NCBI RefSeq assembly: GCF_000226975.2
Contig: NZ_CP019285.1
Coordinates: 1,612,001 to 1,676,000 of the forward strand
Reading direction: 5' to 3'
DNA length: 64,000 nucleotides
Source: Halobiforma lacisalsi AJ5
GTDB taxonomy: Archaea; Halobacteriota; Halobacteria; Halobacteriales; Natrialbaceae
Made by a program: the position numbers and the translations under genes. Positions 4,280 to 39,373 of the stretch are shown here, one piece after another (the first letter of the stretch is position 1; the number at the start of each line of letters is the position of its first letter). The notes beneath the pieces were generated by a model. That model was not told the origin of the DNA. It saw nothing but the letters and a program-made list of their open reading frames with translations, and ran no database searches.

Positions 4280-6256
4280 GTGCCCAATCGTTCGTGGCGC
4301 GTCGTCGGCGCGGTCGTCCTCCTCCTGGTCGGCTCGGTCGCCGCAATCGGCCCGTTCGTGGTCGAGGTCGAGTCGACGACGCCGGAACCGGCCCCCTTCG
4401 ACGACACCGTCTCCATGGGGCTGCCCCTGTCCGAGGAGTACGGCCTCGAGGAGCGGGTCGCACTGCCGAAGGCGCAGGTCTTCTATTCCCAGTACGAGTA
4501 CGTCGTCGGCTACTACGGGATCGACACCTACGTCGATACGAGCCGGGAAGCCGGTCATTCACAGCAGTTCGGCTACCCGCTCGCGGTGTACGTGACGGAT
4601 TACTCGACGGTCGACGTCGAGCTCACCGAGGAGGGGTATCCCGCGGTCGCCGAGCGCGGGGAACCCGGCTGGGTCGACGCCGAACGCGCGTGGTACGTCC
4701 ACGACAGCGAGGCGGCGACGCCGCGGGGGAACGCGATCCTTCCCTTCTCCGACCGGGTCGACGCCGAGGCGTTCGCCGACGCCCGCGGCGGGACCGTCCT
4801 CGCGTGGACGGATCTGCTCGAGGCCGAGTTCGACCGGGCGGAGGCGACCGTCGTCCGCGACCGGGTCGACGACCACCGCGCGGACGGCGACCGCCGCGTC
4901 GCGGCGGGGGCCGACCTCCGGGACCGGCCCGTCTCGACCGTCGTCGGCGAGGACGCCGACACCATCCAGGGGGCGATCGACGACGCGCCAGCGAACACGA
5001 CCGTCCGGATCCCGGCCGGGGAGTACGAGGAACGTCTCGAGATCGATCGCCCGCTCACGCTCGTCGGCGACGGGAACGTCACCATCGACGGCGGCGGTAA
5101 CGGGTCGGTGATCACGACGACGGCGAACCGGACCGCGCTGATCGACCTCGAGATCACCGATTCCGGGACCGTGCAACAGGGCTCCGGCGAGTTGCCGGGA
5201 TTCGATCCCCAGGAGGACGGCGACGACGAGGAGTGGGACGCGACGTTCGAGCGTAACTACGCCGGCGGCGACGCCGGAATCGCGGCCCACTCCGCGACCG
5301 ACTCGCTGATCGAGAACGTCACGATCGACTCCGAGATCACCGGGATCGTCCTCCGGCGCAGCGGCGAGTCCGTCGTCCGTAACGTGACCGTCCACAGCCC
5401 CGAGATGTGGGAGGACGGCCACGCGGCGATCCTGGCGTTTCGTTCGCCGATCGTCGTCGAGAACTCGACGGTGTACGACGGCCGCGACGCCGTCTACTCC
5501 CACCGGTCGCCGGGGCTGGTCGTCCGGGACAACTACTTCGAGGGGAACCGCCTCGGCGTCCACCTGATGCACACCTCGGACTCGCTGGTCGCGGACAACC
5601 GGCTTCGGAACCAGTCCAACACGGGGATCTACGTCATGACCGGGCCGGAGCGCAACGCCGTCGTCGGCAACGACATCAGCAACGCCGACTACGCGCTGTT
5701 CCCCAGCGGGAGCGACTCCTACATCGCCGACAACGTCCTCACGGACAGTCGCGTCGGTCTGCGGGTCGACGCGACCGGGACGATCTACGAGCGAAACGTC
5801 GTCGCCGGCAACGAGATCGGGGCCCAGACGCGCTCGATGCTCCCGACGAATCGGGTGACGCGAAACGACTTCGTCGAGAACGACGTCCACGCGGACGCGG
5901 GAACCGGCCCGCTGCGGATCTGGACCGACGACGGCGTCGGCAACTACTGGCAGGGCGCGACGGCTCTCGACACGGCCGGCCGGGACGGCTCCGTCATGGA
6001 GCGGTCCTACTCGCCGACCGACCCCGTCGACCGGCGGCTCCACCGGGTCGACGGCGCGGAGACGCTGTCGCGTGCGCCCGCTCTCGATGCACTCGAGGGT
6101 CTACAGGGGACCGTCCCCGGGATGCGGACCGGCAGCGTCGTCGATCTGGCACCGACCTGTGAACCGAACAACCCGGACCTCCTCGAGCGGACCGAGTGGG
6201 CCGATCGAGCGTGGTCCTGCGATCGAACGCAACCGACGAGTTACGGTGAGACATGA
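4280..6256 (+). CDS. nosD: NosD-like beta-helix protein with N-terminal NosL-like domain (copy 1)
   Basis: A 658-residue protein, exported or anchored by one N-terminal hydrophobic helix (about residues 5-27). NosD works with NosF and NosY outside the cell membrane in maturing the copper centre of nitrous oxide reductase. Residues about 60-195 resemble NosL: YVTDYSTVDV, WYVHDSE and DAEAFADARGGTV match the neighbouring NosL at 8152, but the copper-ligand cysteines and methionine are missing. From about residue 220 (VVGEDADTIQGAIDDAP) it is a right-handed parallel beta-helix of the periplasmic copper-binding/CASH type, with repeats such as IENVTIDSEITGIVLR and GVHLMHTSDSLVADN. Two cysteines close the protein (TCEPNNPDLL and SCDRT). 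GTG 4280 is chosen because it lies 27 bases after a TATA box and directly before the signal helix; the frame is open from 4202. nosF follows after one base. Confidence 0.85.
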   Translation: MPNRSWRVVGAVVLLLVGSVAAIGPFVVEVESTTPEPAPFDDTVSMGLPLSEEYGLEERVALPKAQVFYSQYEYVVGYYGIDTYVDTSREAGHSQQFGYPLAVYVTDYSTVDVELTEEGYPAVAERGEPGWVDAERAWYVHDSEAATPRGNAILPFSDRVDAEAFADARGGTVLAWTDLLEAEFDRAEATVVRDRVDDHRADGDRRVAAGADLRDRPVSTVVGEDADTIQGAIDDAPANTTVRIPAGEYEERLEIDRPLTLVGDGNVTIDGGGNGSVITTTANRTALIDLEITDSGTVQQGSGELPGFDPQEDGDDEEWDATFERNYAGGDAGIAAHSATDSLIENVTIDSEITGIVLRRSGESVVRNVTVHSPEMWEDGHAAILAFRSPIVVENSTVYDGRDAVYSHRSPGLVVRDNYFEGNRLGVHLMHTSDSLVADNRLRNQSNTGIYVMTGPERNAVVGNDISNADYALFPSGSDSYIADNVLTDSRVGLRVDATGTIYERNVVAGNEIGAQTRSMLPTNRVTRNDFVENDVHADAGTGPLRIWTDDGVGNYWQGATALDTAGRDGSVMERSYSPTDPVDRRLHRVDGAETLSRAPALDALEGLQGTVPGMRTGSVVDLAPTCEPNNPDLLERTEWADRAWSCDRTQPTSYGET

Positions 6257-6257
6257 T

Positions 6258-7190
6258 ATGACCGACGAGACGGCCAGCCCGAACGCGGCGCCGACCGGCG
6301 ACTCGAGCGCCGCGTCCCGAGCGCGGGAATCGAACGACGACAACGACTCCGAGAGCAATCGCAGGGGACGGGCAAACGCACCCCCGGCCGACGCGAGCGT
6401 TGACCCCGAACCGCGGTCCGGAACCCGGTCCGAGCGGGACTCGACGCCGGAGACGGACCGAGCGCCCGTTCTCGAGGCGACGGACGTCGACCACGCCTAC
6501 GGGGACGTCTCCGTTCTGGAGGACCTCTCGATGGCCGTCGACGCCGGGGCCGTCACCGCCCTGGTCGGGCCGAACGGCTCCGGCAAGACGACCCTGCTGC
6601 GGGTGCTCGCCGGCCTGCTCGAGCCGACGTCGGGCTCGGTCGCCTACGAGGGCCGGGAGGCCGTCCGCCGGATCGGGTATCTTCCACAGCAGCCCGCCTT
6701 CCGCCCGGGGTTCACCGTCCTCGAGACGCTGGAGTTCTACTCGTCGCTCGTCGGCGCCGACGCGGACGACGCGATGGGCCGCCTCGAGACGGTCGGACTG
6801 GCGGATGCGGCCGATCGGCCCGTCGAGGCGCTCTCGGGCGGCATGACACGACTCGCCGGGATCGCACAGGCGACGATCGGCGATCCGCCGGTCGTCGTAC
6901 TGGACGAGCCGGCGAGCGGCCTCGATCCCGGCATGAGCAGACACGTCTTCGAGATCGCTTCGGAGTTCGCCGCGGAGGGGACGGCGGTCCTGCTGAGTTC
7001 CCACGACCTCGGACTGGTCGACCGCGTCGCCGACGAGGTCGCGATACTCGACGAGGGGCGGATCGTCCGCCGGGGACCGCCCGCGGCGCTGCGGGCGGAC
7101 CTCGGCGTCGACTCGTTGCGCGGGGTCTACGAGGAGTCGGTCGCAGCCGAGGCCGGCACCGTGCGGGTGCAGGGGGTGACCGACGAATGA
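6258..7190 (+). CDS. nosF: NosF-type ABC transporter ATPase
   Basis: A 310-residue cytoplasmic ATP-binding subunit that powers the NosY membrane partner. A disordered, acidic N-terminus of about 75 residues precedes the ABC domain. Motifs in order: Walker A GPNGSGKTT, Q-loop region YLPQQPAF, signature LSGGMTRLAG, Walker B VVVLDEPASGLDPG and switch histidine SSHDLGLV. ATG 6258 is chosen (MTDETASPNA); the frame is open further upstream but that would overlap nosD. It starts one base after the nosD stop and overlaps nosY by four bases (ATGA), so the three are translationally coupled. Together NosDFY are thought to move a sulfur species or assist metal-site assembly; the exact cargo cannot be read from sequence. 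Confidence 0.88.
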   Translation: MTDETASPNAAPTGDSSAASRARESNDDNDSESNRRGRANAPPADASVDPEPRSGTRSERDSTPETDRAPVLEATDVDHAYGDVSVLEDLSMAVDAGAVTALVGPNGSGKTTLLRVLAGLLEPTSGSVAYEGREAVRRIGYLPQQPAFRPGFTVLETLEFYSSLVGADADDAMGRLETVGLADAADRPVEALSGGMTRLAGIAQATIGDPPVVVLDEPASGLDPGMSRHVFEIASEFAAEGTAVLLSSHDLGLVDRVADEVAILDEGRIVRRGPPAALRADLGVDSLRGVYEESVAAEAGTVRVQGVTDE

Positions 7191-8065
7191 GCGGCGAATC
7201 CGGCGAGACGCGAGCGGCAACCGCGGCCGAATCCCAGCGCGAGCCGTCGATCCCGAGCACCGGTCACCGCCTGTGGACGATCGTCGACCGCGAACTCCAC
7301 ACCGTGGCCCGAACCCGGACCTTCTACCTCCTCGCCGCCGCGCTCGCGGCCGTCGTCCTCGGGATCACCTGGATCGGCGACGGGTTCACTGCGGGGTATC
7401 TCCCCACGACCGTCGACCTCCTGACGCCGCTCGAGTTGCTCGTCCCGATCGTCGCCGTCGCGTTCGGCTACCGGGCGATCCTGGGCGACGAACTGCGGGG
7501 CGAACTCGACGTCCTCGAGACCTATCCCGTCTCGTCCCGCGAGATCGTCCTTGGGGTCTACGCGGGCCGGGCCGTCGGCGTCGCCGTCGCGATCGCGGTG
7601 CCGCTCGTGCTGGCCGCGGTCGGGATCGCATTGGGGGGCGAAGATCCCGTCGCTATCTACGCGACCCACACGGGTGCGGACTCGCCGATCCTGTTCGCCC
7701 GGTTCCTCGTCCTGACGGTCCTGTTCGGCCTCGTCCTCCTGGCGGTCGCGATCGCCATCTCCGCGCTGGTCGGCGGGACCCGCAGCGCCCTCGCGCTGGC
7801 GGTCGTCGCGCTCGTCGCCCTGCTGATCGGCTTCGACCTGGCGCTGGTCTACGGGCTCGCGGAGGGCGTGATCGGCGAGGCCGACCTGCTGTACTCGCTG
7901 GCGATCAGTCCGCTGAGCGCGTACCGCGGGCTCGTCCTCGAGACGACGGTCGTCGTCGCCTCGGGAACGGGACCGCGCGTGGCCTCGCCGCTGGCCAGTC
8001 TGATCGGGCTTGCCGCCTGGACCGTCGGCTCGCTCGCGGTCGCGATCTGGGGCGTCCGCCGGTAA
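7187..8065 (+). CDS. nosY: NosY-type ABC-2 membrane permease
   Basis: A 292-residue ABC-2 family integral membrane protein with six predicted helices. Hydrophobic segments begin near residues 45, 78, 125, 165, 205 and 265, and an amphipathic stretch between helices 2 and 3 holds DELRGELDVLETYPVSSREIVLGVYAGR. That motif is typical of NosY permeases, which pair with NosF in the membrane and with NosD outside. The start ATG overlaps the nosF stop (ATGA), confirming the operon. A polar N-terminus of about 25 residues precedes the first contact helix. No nosL follows on this strand; the neighbouring nosL is convergent. Confidence 0.87.
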   Translation: MSGESGETRAATAAESQREPSIPSTGHRLWTIVDRELHTVARTRTFYLLAAALAAVVLGITWIGDGFTAGYLPTTVDLLTPLELLVPIVAVAFGYRAILGDELRGELDVLETYPVSSREIVLGVYAGRAVGVAVAIAVPLVLAAVGIALGGEDPVAIYATHTGADSPILFARFLVLTVLFGLVLLAVAIAISALVGGTRSALALAVVALVALLIGFDLALVYGLAEGVIGEADLLYSLAISPLSAYRGLVLETTVVVASGTGPRVASPLASLIGLAAWTVGSLAVAIWGVRR

Positions 8066-35823: not shown

Positions 35824-37041
35824 TTAGTTACCAGACAACAGTTCATGAGCATCCTGGGCAAGTTCCATAAGGGCTTGGGCAGTTCGGTAGTGCACGTATG
35901 ACCTCTTACGATAGTGATCTGTCCCGTAAATATCAAAATCACGAAGGCATTGGTTCCCTTCGCCCAATTCCATCTTCGCAACATTCAGAATTGGTAGAGC
36001 AATCAGTGACTCTGCACTACTTGCCATTTGATTGAATTCATCCGTAGTGAGTTCCTGCTCTACAGTTAGTGTATCTCGATCTTTTGCGTTCAGATCGTCT
36101 GAAGCCACTAGCGCCGAGGCGTCAATATAGGTCCGTGCATAAAGCAAGTCCAGCAATGCTAAACCGATGTATTCCTGCTCGTATCTCTCCCTTGCTCGCT
36201 CGAAATATACTTCAGCGTTTTCAAGCACATAGCTGGCGTGATCACCGTCATGAGAGACACCACTCAGCCTCGTCGAGATGGCCTTAGAGAAGCGTTCATA
36301 CTGATCTCGAATGTTGGACTCATAGTCAGATCCATTGTGGTCAGCAGAGTCAACCGCTTCCTGGAAGATTTTCGCGTCATGCAGGTTGCCACGGGCGAAT
36401 TCAAGTCCCGATTCAGCATACATCGCTCGTGTTTCGTTATCCAAATTATTATTTTCTAATATTTTTGGGACTTGGTTGGACCACGTCTGGGAAGAAATTA
36501 AACTCCGCTCAATCTCTGAAGCTTTTGCAAGCGCTTCAGGAAGCGATTCTCCAGTATAAGCGAGTCGGGATTGATGTGAATCAATCTTATCTTTTAGTGA
36601 TTCTGTATGTTGGGGGAGTCGTTCTCTGTCTAGTTCATCGGCGCGAGCTCTCTGCTGTGCGATACTTCCTGCAGCAAGCGCTGCAGCCGAACGATATGCA
36701 ACTAGGCGCCTAAATGGATCATCTAACTTTTCAGCAATATCAACATTTGCTTTGGCTTGCTCACCAAACTCACTCGATTCAACTGTAGATATTTCTGCTG
36801 CTTGAGATTGGGCATGTTCGATGTGAGAATCTGTAATATCGATTGCAAGATCTAGTGCATCAACTTCACAGCATTGGCTCTCTTCAGGTGTAATTCCTCC
36901 CGGTGGTTCATCAAACTCACAATCGCTGGAATCTGAGCGGTAGTAACAAAAAGCAGATATCATTCGGAGTTGGTGTTCTGACTCATTTTCGAACGTCGTT
37001 TGACCGCTTGATAAGTAGTAGTACCCGCGTTCGACTTCTCT
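35824..37041 (-). pseudogene. C-terminal two thirds of a Tat-exported protein, split by an IS element
   Basis: Read leftward from the IS edge, the frame continues directly from the part at 38693-39373: after the shared 10-bp duplication it reads REVERGYYYLSSGQTT and then MISAFCYYRSDSS. From ATG 36963 a 379-residue fragment could still be made on its own. It is rich in alpha helices with coiled-coil character (SSEFGEQAKANVDIAEKL, EIERSLISSQTW), has a cysteine pair QCCEVDAL near its front, and has no membrane helix. No family is recognised. Codon use is AT-rich. Without the IS, both parts make one protein of about 632 residues. Confidence 0.78.
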
Positions 37042-37051
37042 ATTAGCACCC

Positions 37052-37087
37052 CATTCGTTCTAGTTTAGCCATTCGTTCTAGTTTAGC
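37052..37087. repeat. Tandem duplication of the IS left terminal repeat
   Basis: CATTCGTTCTAGTTTAGC occurs twice back to back without change (37052-37069 and 37070-37087). Only the outer copy touches the 10-bp target duplication. A doubled end may come from slippage or from aberrant transposition, and could offer two cutting positions for transposase. Confidence 0.85.
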
Positions 37088-37118: not shown

Positions 37119-38476
37119 GTGACTACCAGTCAGAGAAATCCGGTGGATAGTGTGACCTACTCCCCACCGGATTCAGTGATTGTTGATCGGATTCAAAGAG
37201 CGTTTCCCTCCGATGAGTTGCGCGAGCGCGCTCGCGCAACGAATCTCGTAGAGCGTGAACGGAAATTCGACGCTGTTGCGCTGTTCTACACGCTTTCACT
37301 CGGCTTCGCTGCTGGATCAGACCGATCTATTCAGGCCTTTCTCGAACGATTCGTCGAGATGGCTGACTGTGACGAACTCTCCTATGCAACCTTCCACGGG
37401 TGGTTCTCTCCACCGTTCGTTGCACTCCTTCGAGAGATTCTCGATGACGCCATCGAGAATCTCGATACCAGAAGTGCCGACCTTAGCGGACGTCTCGAAC
37501 GGTTTCGAGACGTCCTCATCGTCGATGGGAGCATTGTGTCTCTCTATCAAGATGCTGCAGATGTGTACGCTGCAACCGGTGACGATCAGGCTGGTCTGAA
37601 ACTTCACCTAACAGAATCACTCTCAACTGGCCTTCCGGCACGGTACCAGACAACTGACGCTAAAACCCAAGAACGGAGCCAGCTACCCACCGGCGAGTGG
37701 GTAGCTGGCGCACTTATCCTGCTTGATCTCGGCTTCTACGACTTCTGGTTGTTCGACCGCATTGACCAGAATAACGGCTGGTTCGTCTCCCGTGTGAAGG
37801 ACGACGCAAACTTCGAGATCGTCGAAGAGCTCCGGACGTGGCGGGGCAACAGTATCCCGCTCGAAGGAGAGTCGCTGCAGGACGTCCTTGACGACCTGCA
37901 GCGACAGGAAATCGATGTTCGCATTACCCTCTCGTTCGAGCGAAAGCGAGGGTCGTCCACCAGCCCGCCCCGAACGTTCCGGTTGGTTGGTGTTTGGAAC
38001 GAGGACACTGAGGAGTACCACCTCTATCTGACGAATCTCTCGAAAGACGACTATAGCGCGCCCGATATCGCACAGCTCTATCGGGCGCGCTGGGAGATCG
38101 AATTGCTATTCAAGGAACTGAAATCGCGCTTCGGACTTGACGAGATCAACACGACCGATCCGTACATCATCGAGGCGCTGGTCATCATGGCCGCGATCTC
38201 ACTGCTGATGAGCCGTGTTATCGTCGATGAACTCCAGAAACTAGACAGAAACAACAGGAAAGCGCCGACGACGCCGCAGCGTCGTCGCCGCAACTCCCTC
38301 GTCGGCGATGTTCTCACGCTGTCGAACGCCACGCACACCTGATCCAGTTGTATGTGATGCTCGATTTAGGGTACGAACTCCCGGATTTAGATGAGTTGTT
38401 GTTATGGGCGTCACGTGATCCAAATCCGCATCGTCCGAGATTACGTGATCAGGTTAAGTCAGGCGAGTTCTGGTAA
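37119..38476 (+). pseudogene. IS4-family (ISH8-like) transposase with a frameshift near its end
   Basis: From GTG 37119 a 407-residue frame runs to a stop at 38342. It has the DDE motifs of IS4 transposases: first aspartate in RDVLIVDGSIVSLYQ, second in the SRVKDDANFE region, and the glutamate in YRARWEIELLFKELKSRFGL (Y-R-E-K signature). The true C-terminus lies in another frame: from about 38260 that frame reads ESADDAAASSPQLPRRRCSH, then HAHLIQLYVMLDLGYELPDL, and ends SGEFW at TAA 38476, as ISH8 transposases do. A single-base shift near 38250-38262 therefore separates the last 70 residues or so. The catalytic residues lie before the shift, so partial activity cannot be excluded. Confidence 0.82.
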
Positions 38477-38680
38477 CGAACTCGCCTGACGACCGGGGAA
38501 CCCCCTGTCTCAATAGCGGCAGCTCTGGAACGGCGACGCACTCACAGCCGTGAGTGCGCCGCCTCAAAGGTATCACACGACGAATCCGTGACTGCCTGTT
38601 CCAGCGACCCACTCTCCTGAGCCAGTCCACTCCAATTTGGTATAGTCTCTGCTGAGATCCTGCTTCACCCCGTCGCTAAA

Positions 38681-39373
38681 CTAGAACAGATGATTAGCAC
38701 CCACATGGTGCCATCCTGACTCTGGAGTACCCATTACATCCCATTTCCAGTCAACAGATCGCGTCGTACTAGATTCGTCATCAATTGCTGGTGTCGGATC
38801 GTCAAATGAGATATCGACTGTTGTTCGGTCAATCTTAGTCTTTTTGTCGTCCTCATCCTCAACCCCCATAAGACCTGTTGGGGATGGAATTGGGAATGGA
38901 GCACTATCGGTAGCAATAGCCCAGACTGCATCAAATGCCCATTCTGCATATTCGGAGGGGAAGTCGTCGTCATCTTCATCACCTTTGTACAGATGCACTG
39001 TTTCAAGAACGAGCTCTGACGGCGCACTACCCGTTTGCTCAATGGTTACTCGACTATTGTCACACCCTGAAAACCAGACATCACCCGTCCACGTATTGCT
39101 ATCACTACTATCATCAGATGCATTAACCCATGACCCAGCTTGCCAGGTTGAGGGTGACGTAGCAGGATTCTCTAAGTCTCTCTGCTCTACATAGTCAATG
39201 GCACCACTATTTGTTATTGTTTTCTCATCGAATTCATCACTGTGGTGATCGACACTGTAGTCCATTTCGTTTCGCTCATCACTAGCAGTAACTGGAGTAC
39301 TCGCAAATGGAGTGAGTAATCCTGCAGCTGCAAGCAGCTTCATCGTCCTCCGTCGGGAAAGGTTAGTTCCCAT
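38681..39373 (-). pseudogene. N-terminal third of a Tat-exported protein, cut by an IS element
   Basis: From ATG 39373 the protein starts with a twin-arginine signal (SRRRTMKLLAAAGLL...ASTPVTAS, with a likely cleavage site after residue 30) and continues with serine- and acid-rich beta-type sequence such as WTGDVWFSGCDNSRVTIEQ. At 38702 it meets the 10-bp target duplication; the last few codons and the stop (CTA at 38681-38683) come from the IS end. Without the IS the frame joins exactly to the part at 35824-37041. AT-rich codon use. Family unknown. This fragment could still be exported by the Tat system. Confidence 0.78.

Follow-up and report, generated by a model that had tools for sequence, protein, structure and literature searches.

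The 64-kb stretch of DNA analyzed here, hereafter the window, comes from Halobiforma lacisalsi AJ5 and contains an insertion sequence (IS) which interrupts a host gene and whose left tip is doubled (Table 1). The 18-bp tip sequence, CATTCGTTCTAGTTTAGC, is present twice in tandem, the two copies being identical at 18/18 positions, and the right tip is complementary to it at 16/18. The element is bracketed by a 10-bp target duplication, ATTAGCACCC, which is adjoined by the outer tip copy only. The exact tandem repeat and the position of its outer copy had both been pointed out in an earlier note on this DNA, and both are borne out. Taken alone, the repeat could be read one base leftward, the preceding base also being C; its boundary is fixed by the target duplication. 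For repeat units of 15-30 bp, the doubled tip (37052-37087) is the only sequence duplicated exactly in tandem anywhere in the window.

Table 1. Features of the doubled-tip element and of the interrupted host gene (window positions).
Feature	Positions	Strand	Remark
ORF with C-terminal part of interrupted host gene	35824..36963	-	
Left target duplication copy ATTAGCACCC	37042..37051	no strand	single copy at uninterrupted site of sibling G002
Outer left tip, 18 bp, end at insertion boundary	37052..37069	+	adjoins target duplication; same layout in 5/6 copies
Inner left tip, exact copy	37070..37087	+	counterpart of sole left tip in relatives and copy L005
IS4-family transposase ORF, 407 aa, shortened by 1-bp frameshift	37119..38342	+	
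Hairpin h0, short, 8-bp arms, near transposase ORF start	37139..37171	+	
Palindrome hP, perfect, 24 bp, in transposase gene	37217..37240	+	
Hairpin h1, 13-bp arms	37434..37463	+	
Hairpin h2, 14-bp arms, 1 mismatch	37486..37517	+	
Hairpin h3, 15-bp arms, 1 mismatch	37676..37711	+	
Hairpin h4, 16-bp arms, 1 mismatch	37871..37905	+	
Hairpin h5, 13-bp arms	38055..38091	+	right arm overlaps YRARWEIELLFKELK codons
A run, one base shorter than in four other undeleted copies	38249..38251	+	shifts frame late in transposase; alignment column 1198
Hairpin h6, 13-bp arms, 1 mismatch	38262..38291	+	
Hairpin h7, 13-bp arms	38458..38490	+	around stop codon of unshifted frame
Hairpin h8, 14-bp arms, 1 mismatch	38532..38563	+	3' of transposase gene
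Right tip, CATCTGTTCTAGTTTAGC on minus strand	38675..38692	-	
ORF with N-terminal part of interrupted host gene	38681..39373	-	last codons inside IS; flanks continuous in G002
Right target duplication copy	38693..38702	no strand	

The label "ISH8-like", given to the element in the earlier note, holds. The transposase matches the NCBIfam IS4 family NF033592 (transpos_IS4_1; 277.6 bits, cut-off 115) and Pfam DDE_Tnp_1 (PF01609; 87.6 bits, cut-off 23). Read by eye, the ORF translation contains the YREK motif in the form YRARWEIELLFKELK. The ends start with CATTCG on the left and CATCTG on the right, direct repeats of 10 bp flank 6/6 copies in the genome, and the length is 1641-1642 bp in the doubled-tip copies and 1624 bp in the single-tip copy, with one deletion copy of 1123 bp. 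The element thereby shows the CAT ends, 10-bp duplications, length of 1400-1800 bp and YREK motif that Table 1 of PMC2266710 gives for this subgroup.

The closest named full-length relative is ISH32, an IS4-family element of the ISH8 subgroup found on plasmids of Halobacterium salinarum and Natrinema pellirubrum. It shares the 10-bp duplications, the transposase type and the same eight hairpins, and its best full-length plasmid records show 93.4% DNA identity over query positions 18-1641, that is, from the inner tip through the right tip. Two copies are assigned to the same IS in ISfinder above a DNA identity of about 95%; by this sequence measure, we regard the window element as a close relative of ISH32 and not as ISH32 itself. 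In addition, ISH32 has one left tip (CATCCG...), whereas the window element has two (CATTCG...).

The window copy is unable to make a normal transposase any more. Its frame is open over 411 codons from stop to stop, versus 456 in the four copies L002-L005, and the unshifted frame would end at 38476. The host gene that it splits (minus strand, 35824-37051 and 38693-39373) is uninterrupted in the sibling genome G002, where it forms a 650-aa frame from stop to stop, and its C-terminal 379 aa match that form at 100%. Pfam searches with both halves gave nothing above cut-off. The N-terminal part starts with MGTNLSRRRTMKLLAAAGLLTPFA, which resembles a Tat signal.

Copies, relatives and insertion sites

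Searching the own genome returned 19 match rows. Twelve are self-matches of inverted repeats within the element; the other seven represent pieces of it, including two that make up a single internally deleted copy. The genome thus holds six copies, five with the doubled tip and one with a single tip. The five doubled copies occupy distinct targets, and immediately outside the outer tip of each lies a separate 10-bp duplication: ATTAGCACCC for the window copy, GATCGTATCC for L002, GTAGTCGGTC for L003 and, in element orientation, ATTACAATGG for L004 and GTTGCTCGTC for L006. The remaining copy, L005, is single-tipped, with GTTCCGAAAC as its duplication; it is identical to L002 and L003 over 1624 bp but starts exactly at the position of their inner tip. 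Differences among the copies are few: three bases are changed in L004, a single A is missing from the window copy, and L006 is shorter by 519 bp net. All tips found in the own genome with up to three mismatches (11 left and 6 right) lie within the six elements; at this threshold, neither stray tips nor an emptied donor, which would be traces of inner-end use or of nesting, were found.

The deleted copy (rows L006 and L007; C1:3263942-3265064) measures 1123 bp and has kept both ends intact, with the doubled left tip and its own 10-bp duplication. It is possibly the start of a MITE-like derivative.

Among ten duplications of the element and its relatives, a weak target preference of the form G T T ... 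C can be seen, the first base being G in 7/10 and the last C in 8/10. ISH8 elements, by contrast, are reported to have no apparent target specificity (PMC2266710).

In the relatives whose left ends were read, the tip is single. Among the ISH32 plasmid copies, L091, L092 and L093 were read at both ends and L094 only at the left one; those three, like the relative L049, possess a single left tip and a 10-bp duplication each. In the sibling genomes G001 (five) and G003 (six), all 11 left tips are single; G003 is in 210 contigs whose ends cut elements, and the 1500 bases upstream of each left tip were inspected. In G002 and G004, no tip was found at up to two mismatches, and G002, a draft of 30 contigs where repeats can be missing, also had no match to the IS. 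Pattern scans, which demand a conserved core and could miss a diverged doubled tip, found the doubling in 1/125 genomes of the family and 1/392 of the order, the own genome both times, and in none of the IMG/VR contigs.

Several insertion sites are uninterrupted in G002. Over 290 bases, the site of the window copy matches at 290/290 (100%), that of L005 at 97% and that of L006 at 96%, while the site of L003 has a partial match (169/290 bases across the site, 93%). The two insertion sites on contig C2 have no counterpart in the four genus genomes searched. Given these uninterrupted sites, the insertions appear to postdate the divergence from G002, and the tips arrived as part of the element. 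Judging from these comparisons, the single tip is the outgroup state, and the doubled tip is a derived, heritable and mobile variant.

Origin of the doubled tip

Very probably, the doubled tip belongs to a mobile variant of an ISH32-type element and is inherited with it, the outer 18 bp serving as the left end. In one founder copy, the tip would have been duplicated once, strand slippage in the course of replication or repair being the simplest mechanism, and the doubled variant would then have moved at least four times, each time with the outer 18 bp as left end. The inner tip would most likely be a passenger or a spare. The ends of the window copy look intact, and it could be moved by the transposase of the four copies with an unbroken frame. 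The duplicated unit has the same length as the tip-to-tip match of the window element (18 bp), a coincidence that random slippage would not necessarily produce; it is weakened by ISH32, in which the tip-to-tip match is 17 bp. Gene conversion between copies, instead of transposition of doubled copies, could also have spread the doubling and is kept as a residual alternative.

Two readings have practically no weight left. The earlier note had suggested that the doubling may record an aberrant transposition, which for an event specific to the window copy is unsupported and refuted by the data: the same doubled tip is present in 5/6 copies at five targets, four of them elsewhere in the genome. Conversely, the doubling could be the normal state of this ISH32-like IS type, and a doubling carried by all copies was what the earlier note had named as evidence against its view. 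Within this genome this is nearly so, 5/6 copies being doubled, but it fails for the IS type in general, as the tip is single in the ISH32 copies that were read and in G001 and G003 and the doubled pattern was absent from the other family and order genomes scanned. We consider this reading refuted as well.

The earlier note had also raised the possibility that the element has alternative ends, and this part of it can be retained as a tentative option. The transposase would sometimes cut at the inner tip, with L005 as such a product. The tips being identical, the inner one should be recognized, and L005 does start exactly at it, with a proper duplication (GTTCCGAAAC) and 0 base changes compared with L002 and L003 over 1624 bp. 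However, the outgroups are single-tipped, so that L005 may simply be the ancestral form, which explains its start equally well. Moreover, the outer tip lies at the boundary in 5/5 doubled copies, and inner use amounts to one event at most. If both tips were used equally, the probability of 4/4 outer uses would be 1/16 and that of at most one inner use out of five 6/32, which argues weakly against such use. It is rather unlikely, in turn, that the doubling arose by nesting, that is, by the insertion of one copy 18 bp inside the left tip of another, the outer tip then moving along with the inner copy. Such an event would yield exactly a tip followed by a complete element, and a cassette made of ISH2 and a partial ISH8A, bounded by one 10-bp duplication, is reported in Halobacterium (PMC10264941). 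In that cassette, as in the doubled tip, two ISH8-type ends are directly adjacent and have moved as one unit with a single outer duplication, but it combines a whole MITE with part of an element, whereas here an 18-bp tip is duplicated (PMC10264941). Nesting requires CTAGTTTAGC as target, whose last base C fits 8/10 observed duplications but whose first base C fits only 1/10; furthermore, no broken remnant of a host copy is present in the genome, where each of the 17 tips is accounted for by one of the six elements. Selection for the doubling, through two adjacent transposase sites raising the rate of moving, seems somewhat less likely still: 5/6 copies are doubled although the single-tip form is older, but six nearly identical copies cannot separate advantage from chance.

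With an inherited mobile variant as the preferred reading, the outer 18 bp appear to be sufficient as the left end of the element. They would be complete in this respect because they are followed by a second tip and not by the usual inner sequence. The doubled tip can be seen as a natural experiment suggesting that an ISH8-type transposase needs no more than 18 bp as left end, even when the usual inner sequence is not at its usual distance. The doubled element also lends itself to studying which one a transposase chooses when offered two equal ends. In the titles and abstract openings of openly licensed PMC papers, no description of duplicated IS ends was found.

Hairpins in transposase genes

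The same element carries a second feature, which matters more than the doubled tip and is more surprising. A repeat search of the window first disclosed inverted repeats inside the IS, many of them perfect, which correspond to about nine near-perfect hairpins in and just 3' of the transposase gene (37139-38563). When arms of 11 bp or longer, loops of 3-15 and no more than one mismatch are required, the element contains 8 hairpins, compared with 0.13 in first-order Markov sequences (maximum 1, n=100). By the same count, the 77 overlapping tiles of the window have a mean of 0.87. If the arms must reach 12 bp and loops of 0-15 are allowed, 9 of the 18 hairpins of the whole window are in the 1.64-kb element. 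Shuffling synonymous codons left 0.2-0.3 hairpins, versus 6 in the unbroken ORFs (0/500 shuffles reach 6; two ORFs), and the first 800 nt of the transposase ORF, folded as RNA, give a z of -9.5 (20 shuffles). The RNA fold of the doubled-tip region showed no unusual structure (z -0.1), and a hairpin role for the doubled tip was dropped on this ground.

Counting against specificity, 5 hairpins with arms of 11 or longer were found in one host tile (5741-7381, 1641 bases), although this tile holds just one hairpin whose arms reach 12. The ORFs of this tile include, by eye, one for an ABC-transporter-like protein.

The hairpins are conserved among relatives. Three ISH32 copies have the same eight, as do, in slightly altered form, three copies from the sibling genome G001; 22 further relatives that were scanned have 4-9 hairpins each, some at other positions. 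In an alignment of 24 elements, eight stems tested together show compensatory changes, with 15 pairs and 45 cells altered on both sides, a cell not being an event, as 20 of the 45 come from two changes each common to ten rows. The shuffles gave 6.0 pairs and 13.9 cells, 0/500 reaching either 15 or 45, and slid structures at most 6 pairs and 9 cells. This count kept the truncated or recombinant rows L051 and L054 and left out h7 and h8, which are lacking or broken in 13/24 rows. Silent third positions coding for the same amino acid differ at 52/1062 (4.9%) in the hairpin arms and at 1918/5104 (37.6%) in the rest of the ORF, a 7.7-fold lower divergence in the arms; this test compares the window with 21 relatives (L051 and L054 left out) over six hairpins and the ORF to about 38200, and its comparisons are not independent. 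The lower silent divergence speaks against a purely mutational origin of the arms by template switching between them.

In two relatives, L048 and L058, hairpin segments are repeated inside the element, the same stem being listed twice, which suggests that they carry internal tandem duplications.

An excess of hairpins was also found in other transposase genes. From the 127 coding sequences of three 50-kb plasmid stretches (pNRC200 twice, pNATPE01), 47 were picked by hand, a small sample made up of longer host genes and of transposase types, most of which are represented by one gene. Among the 17 transposase genes, 16 (ISH3, IS4/ISH8, IS5, IS66 and one plain "transposase") have 3-8 hairpins with loops of 0-15, the exception being ISH7A (ISNCY) with 1; the 30 other genes have none in 19 cases, one in 7, two in 2 and three in 2. 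In the own genome, six distinct ORFs with PF01609, two of them close relatives, include five with 4-7 hairpins and one with none; truncated and deleted copies have 3 and 6, and 2/19 loci had no ORF. A phylum-wide draw, limited to best-match loci with the longest ORF across the locus center (2/29 gave no ORF), returned 3-5 hairpins in 4/4 PF01609 ORFs from other genomes of the order of the window. The 23 ORFs from outside this order, taken as non-haloarchaeal and mostly poorer in G+C, have none in 18 cases, 1 in 4 and 2 in 1. In Escherichia coli, IS30, IS5, IS1 and an IS911 fragment have no hairpins and 10 other genes have 0-1. Only in the ISH32 type do the data show that the stems are under selection; what they show in the other families is the hairpin excess.

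A common spacing rule was considered and rejected: the hairpins of ISH32 are mostly 184-207 bp apart, a spacing which is not common to other families.

With moderate confidence, we lean toward a general haloarchaeal IS device, in which transposase genes of unrelated families (IS4/ISH8, ISH3, IS5, IS66) carry a selected in-frame row of near-perfect hairpins and the resulting strong mRNA structures would repress or gate transposase synthesis, perhaps being opened by RNA-binding proteins of the host such as SmAP1. Structures that throttle translation or mark the mRNA for processing are our favored reading, and a role at the DNA level, as cruciform or single-strand hairpin, may also exist. Stem mismatches do not separate action as RNA from action as DNA, 27 G-T versus 19 A-C cells being counted in 96 mostly paired positions. 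In Halobacterium, 4/33 mobilome proteins were detected, deletion of SmAP1 lowers IS4 and ISH3 transposition, and SmAP1 is credited with a hairpin-melting potential, according to passages of PMC10134880. The hairpin row would offer a physical handle on both the few detected transposase proteins and the effect of SmAP1 loss that these passages report (PMC10134880).

In the titles, abstract openings and passages of openly licensed PMC papers, no description of a hairpin row in DDE transposase genes was found. Many antisense RNAs on transposase genes are mentioned in excerpts of PMC6523106 and PMC5892119. Structured sense RNAs (sotRNAs) in IS1341-type genes are described in PMC8303175, which also reports, for four other genes, a stem-loop signature at sites of putative RNase-dependent processing. 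Like the hairpin row, the sotRNAs of haloarchaeal IS1341/IS605-type tnpB genes represent strong RNA structure overlapping an IS gene, but each is a single RNA located toward the 3' end of tnpB elements, whereas the row runs through DDE transposase genes (PMC8303175). Palindromes are also present near the ends of the IS605-type elements and PATEs of Haloquadratum, in an arrangement which differs from the hairpin row (PMC3119063).
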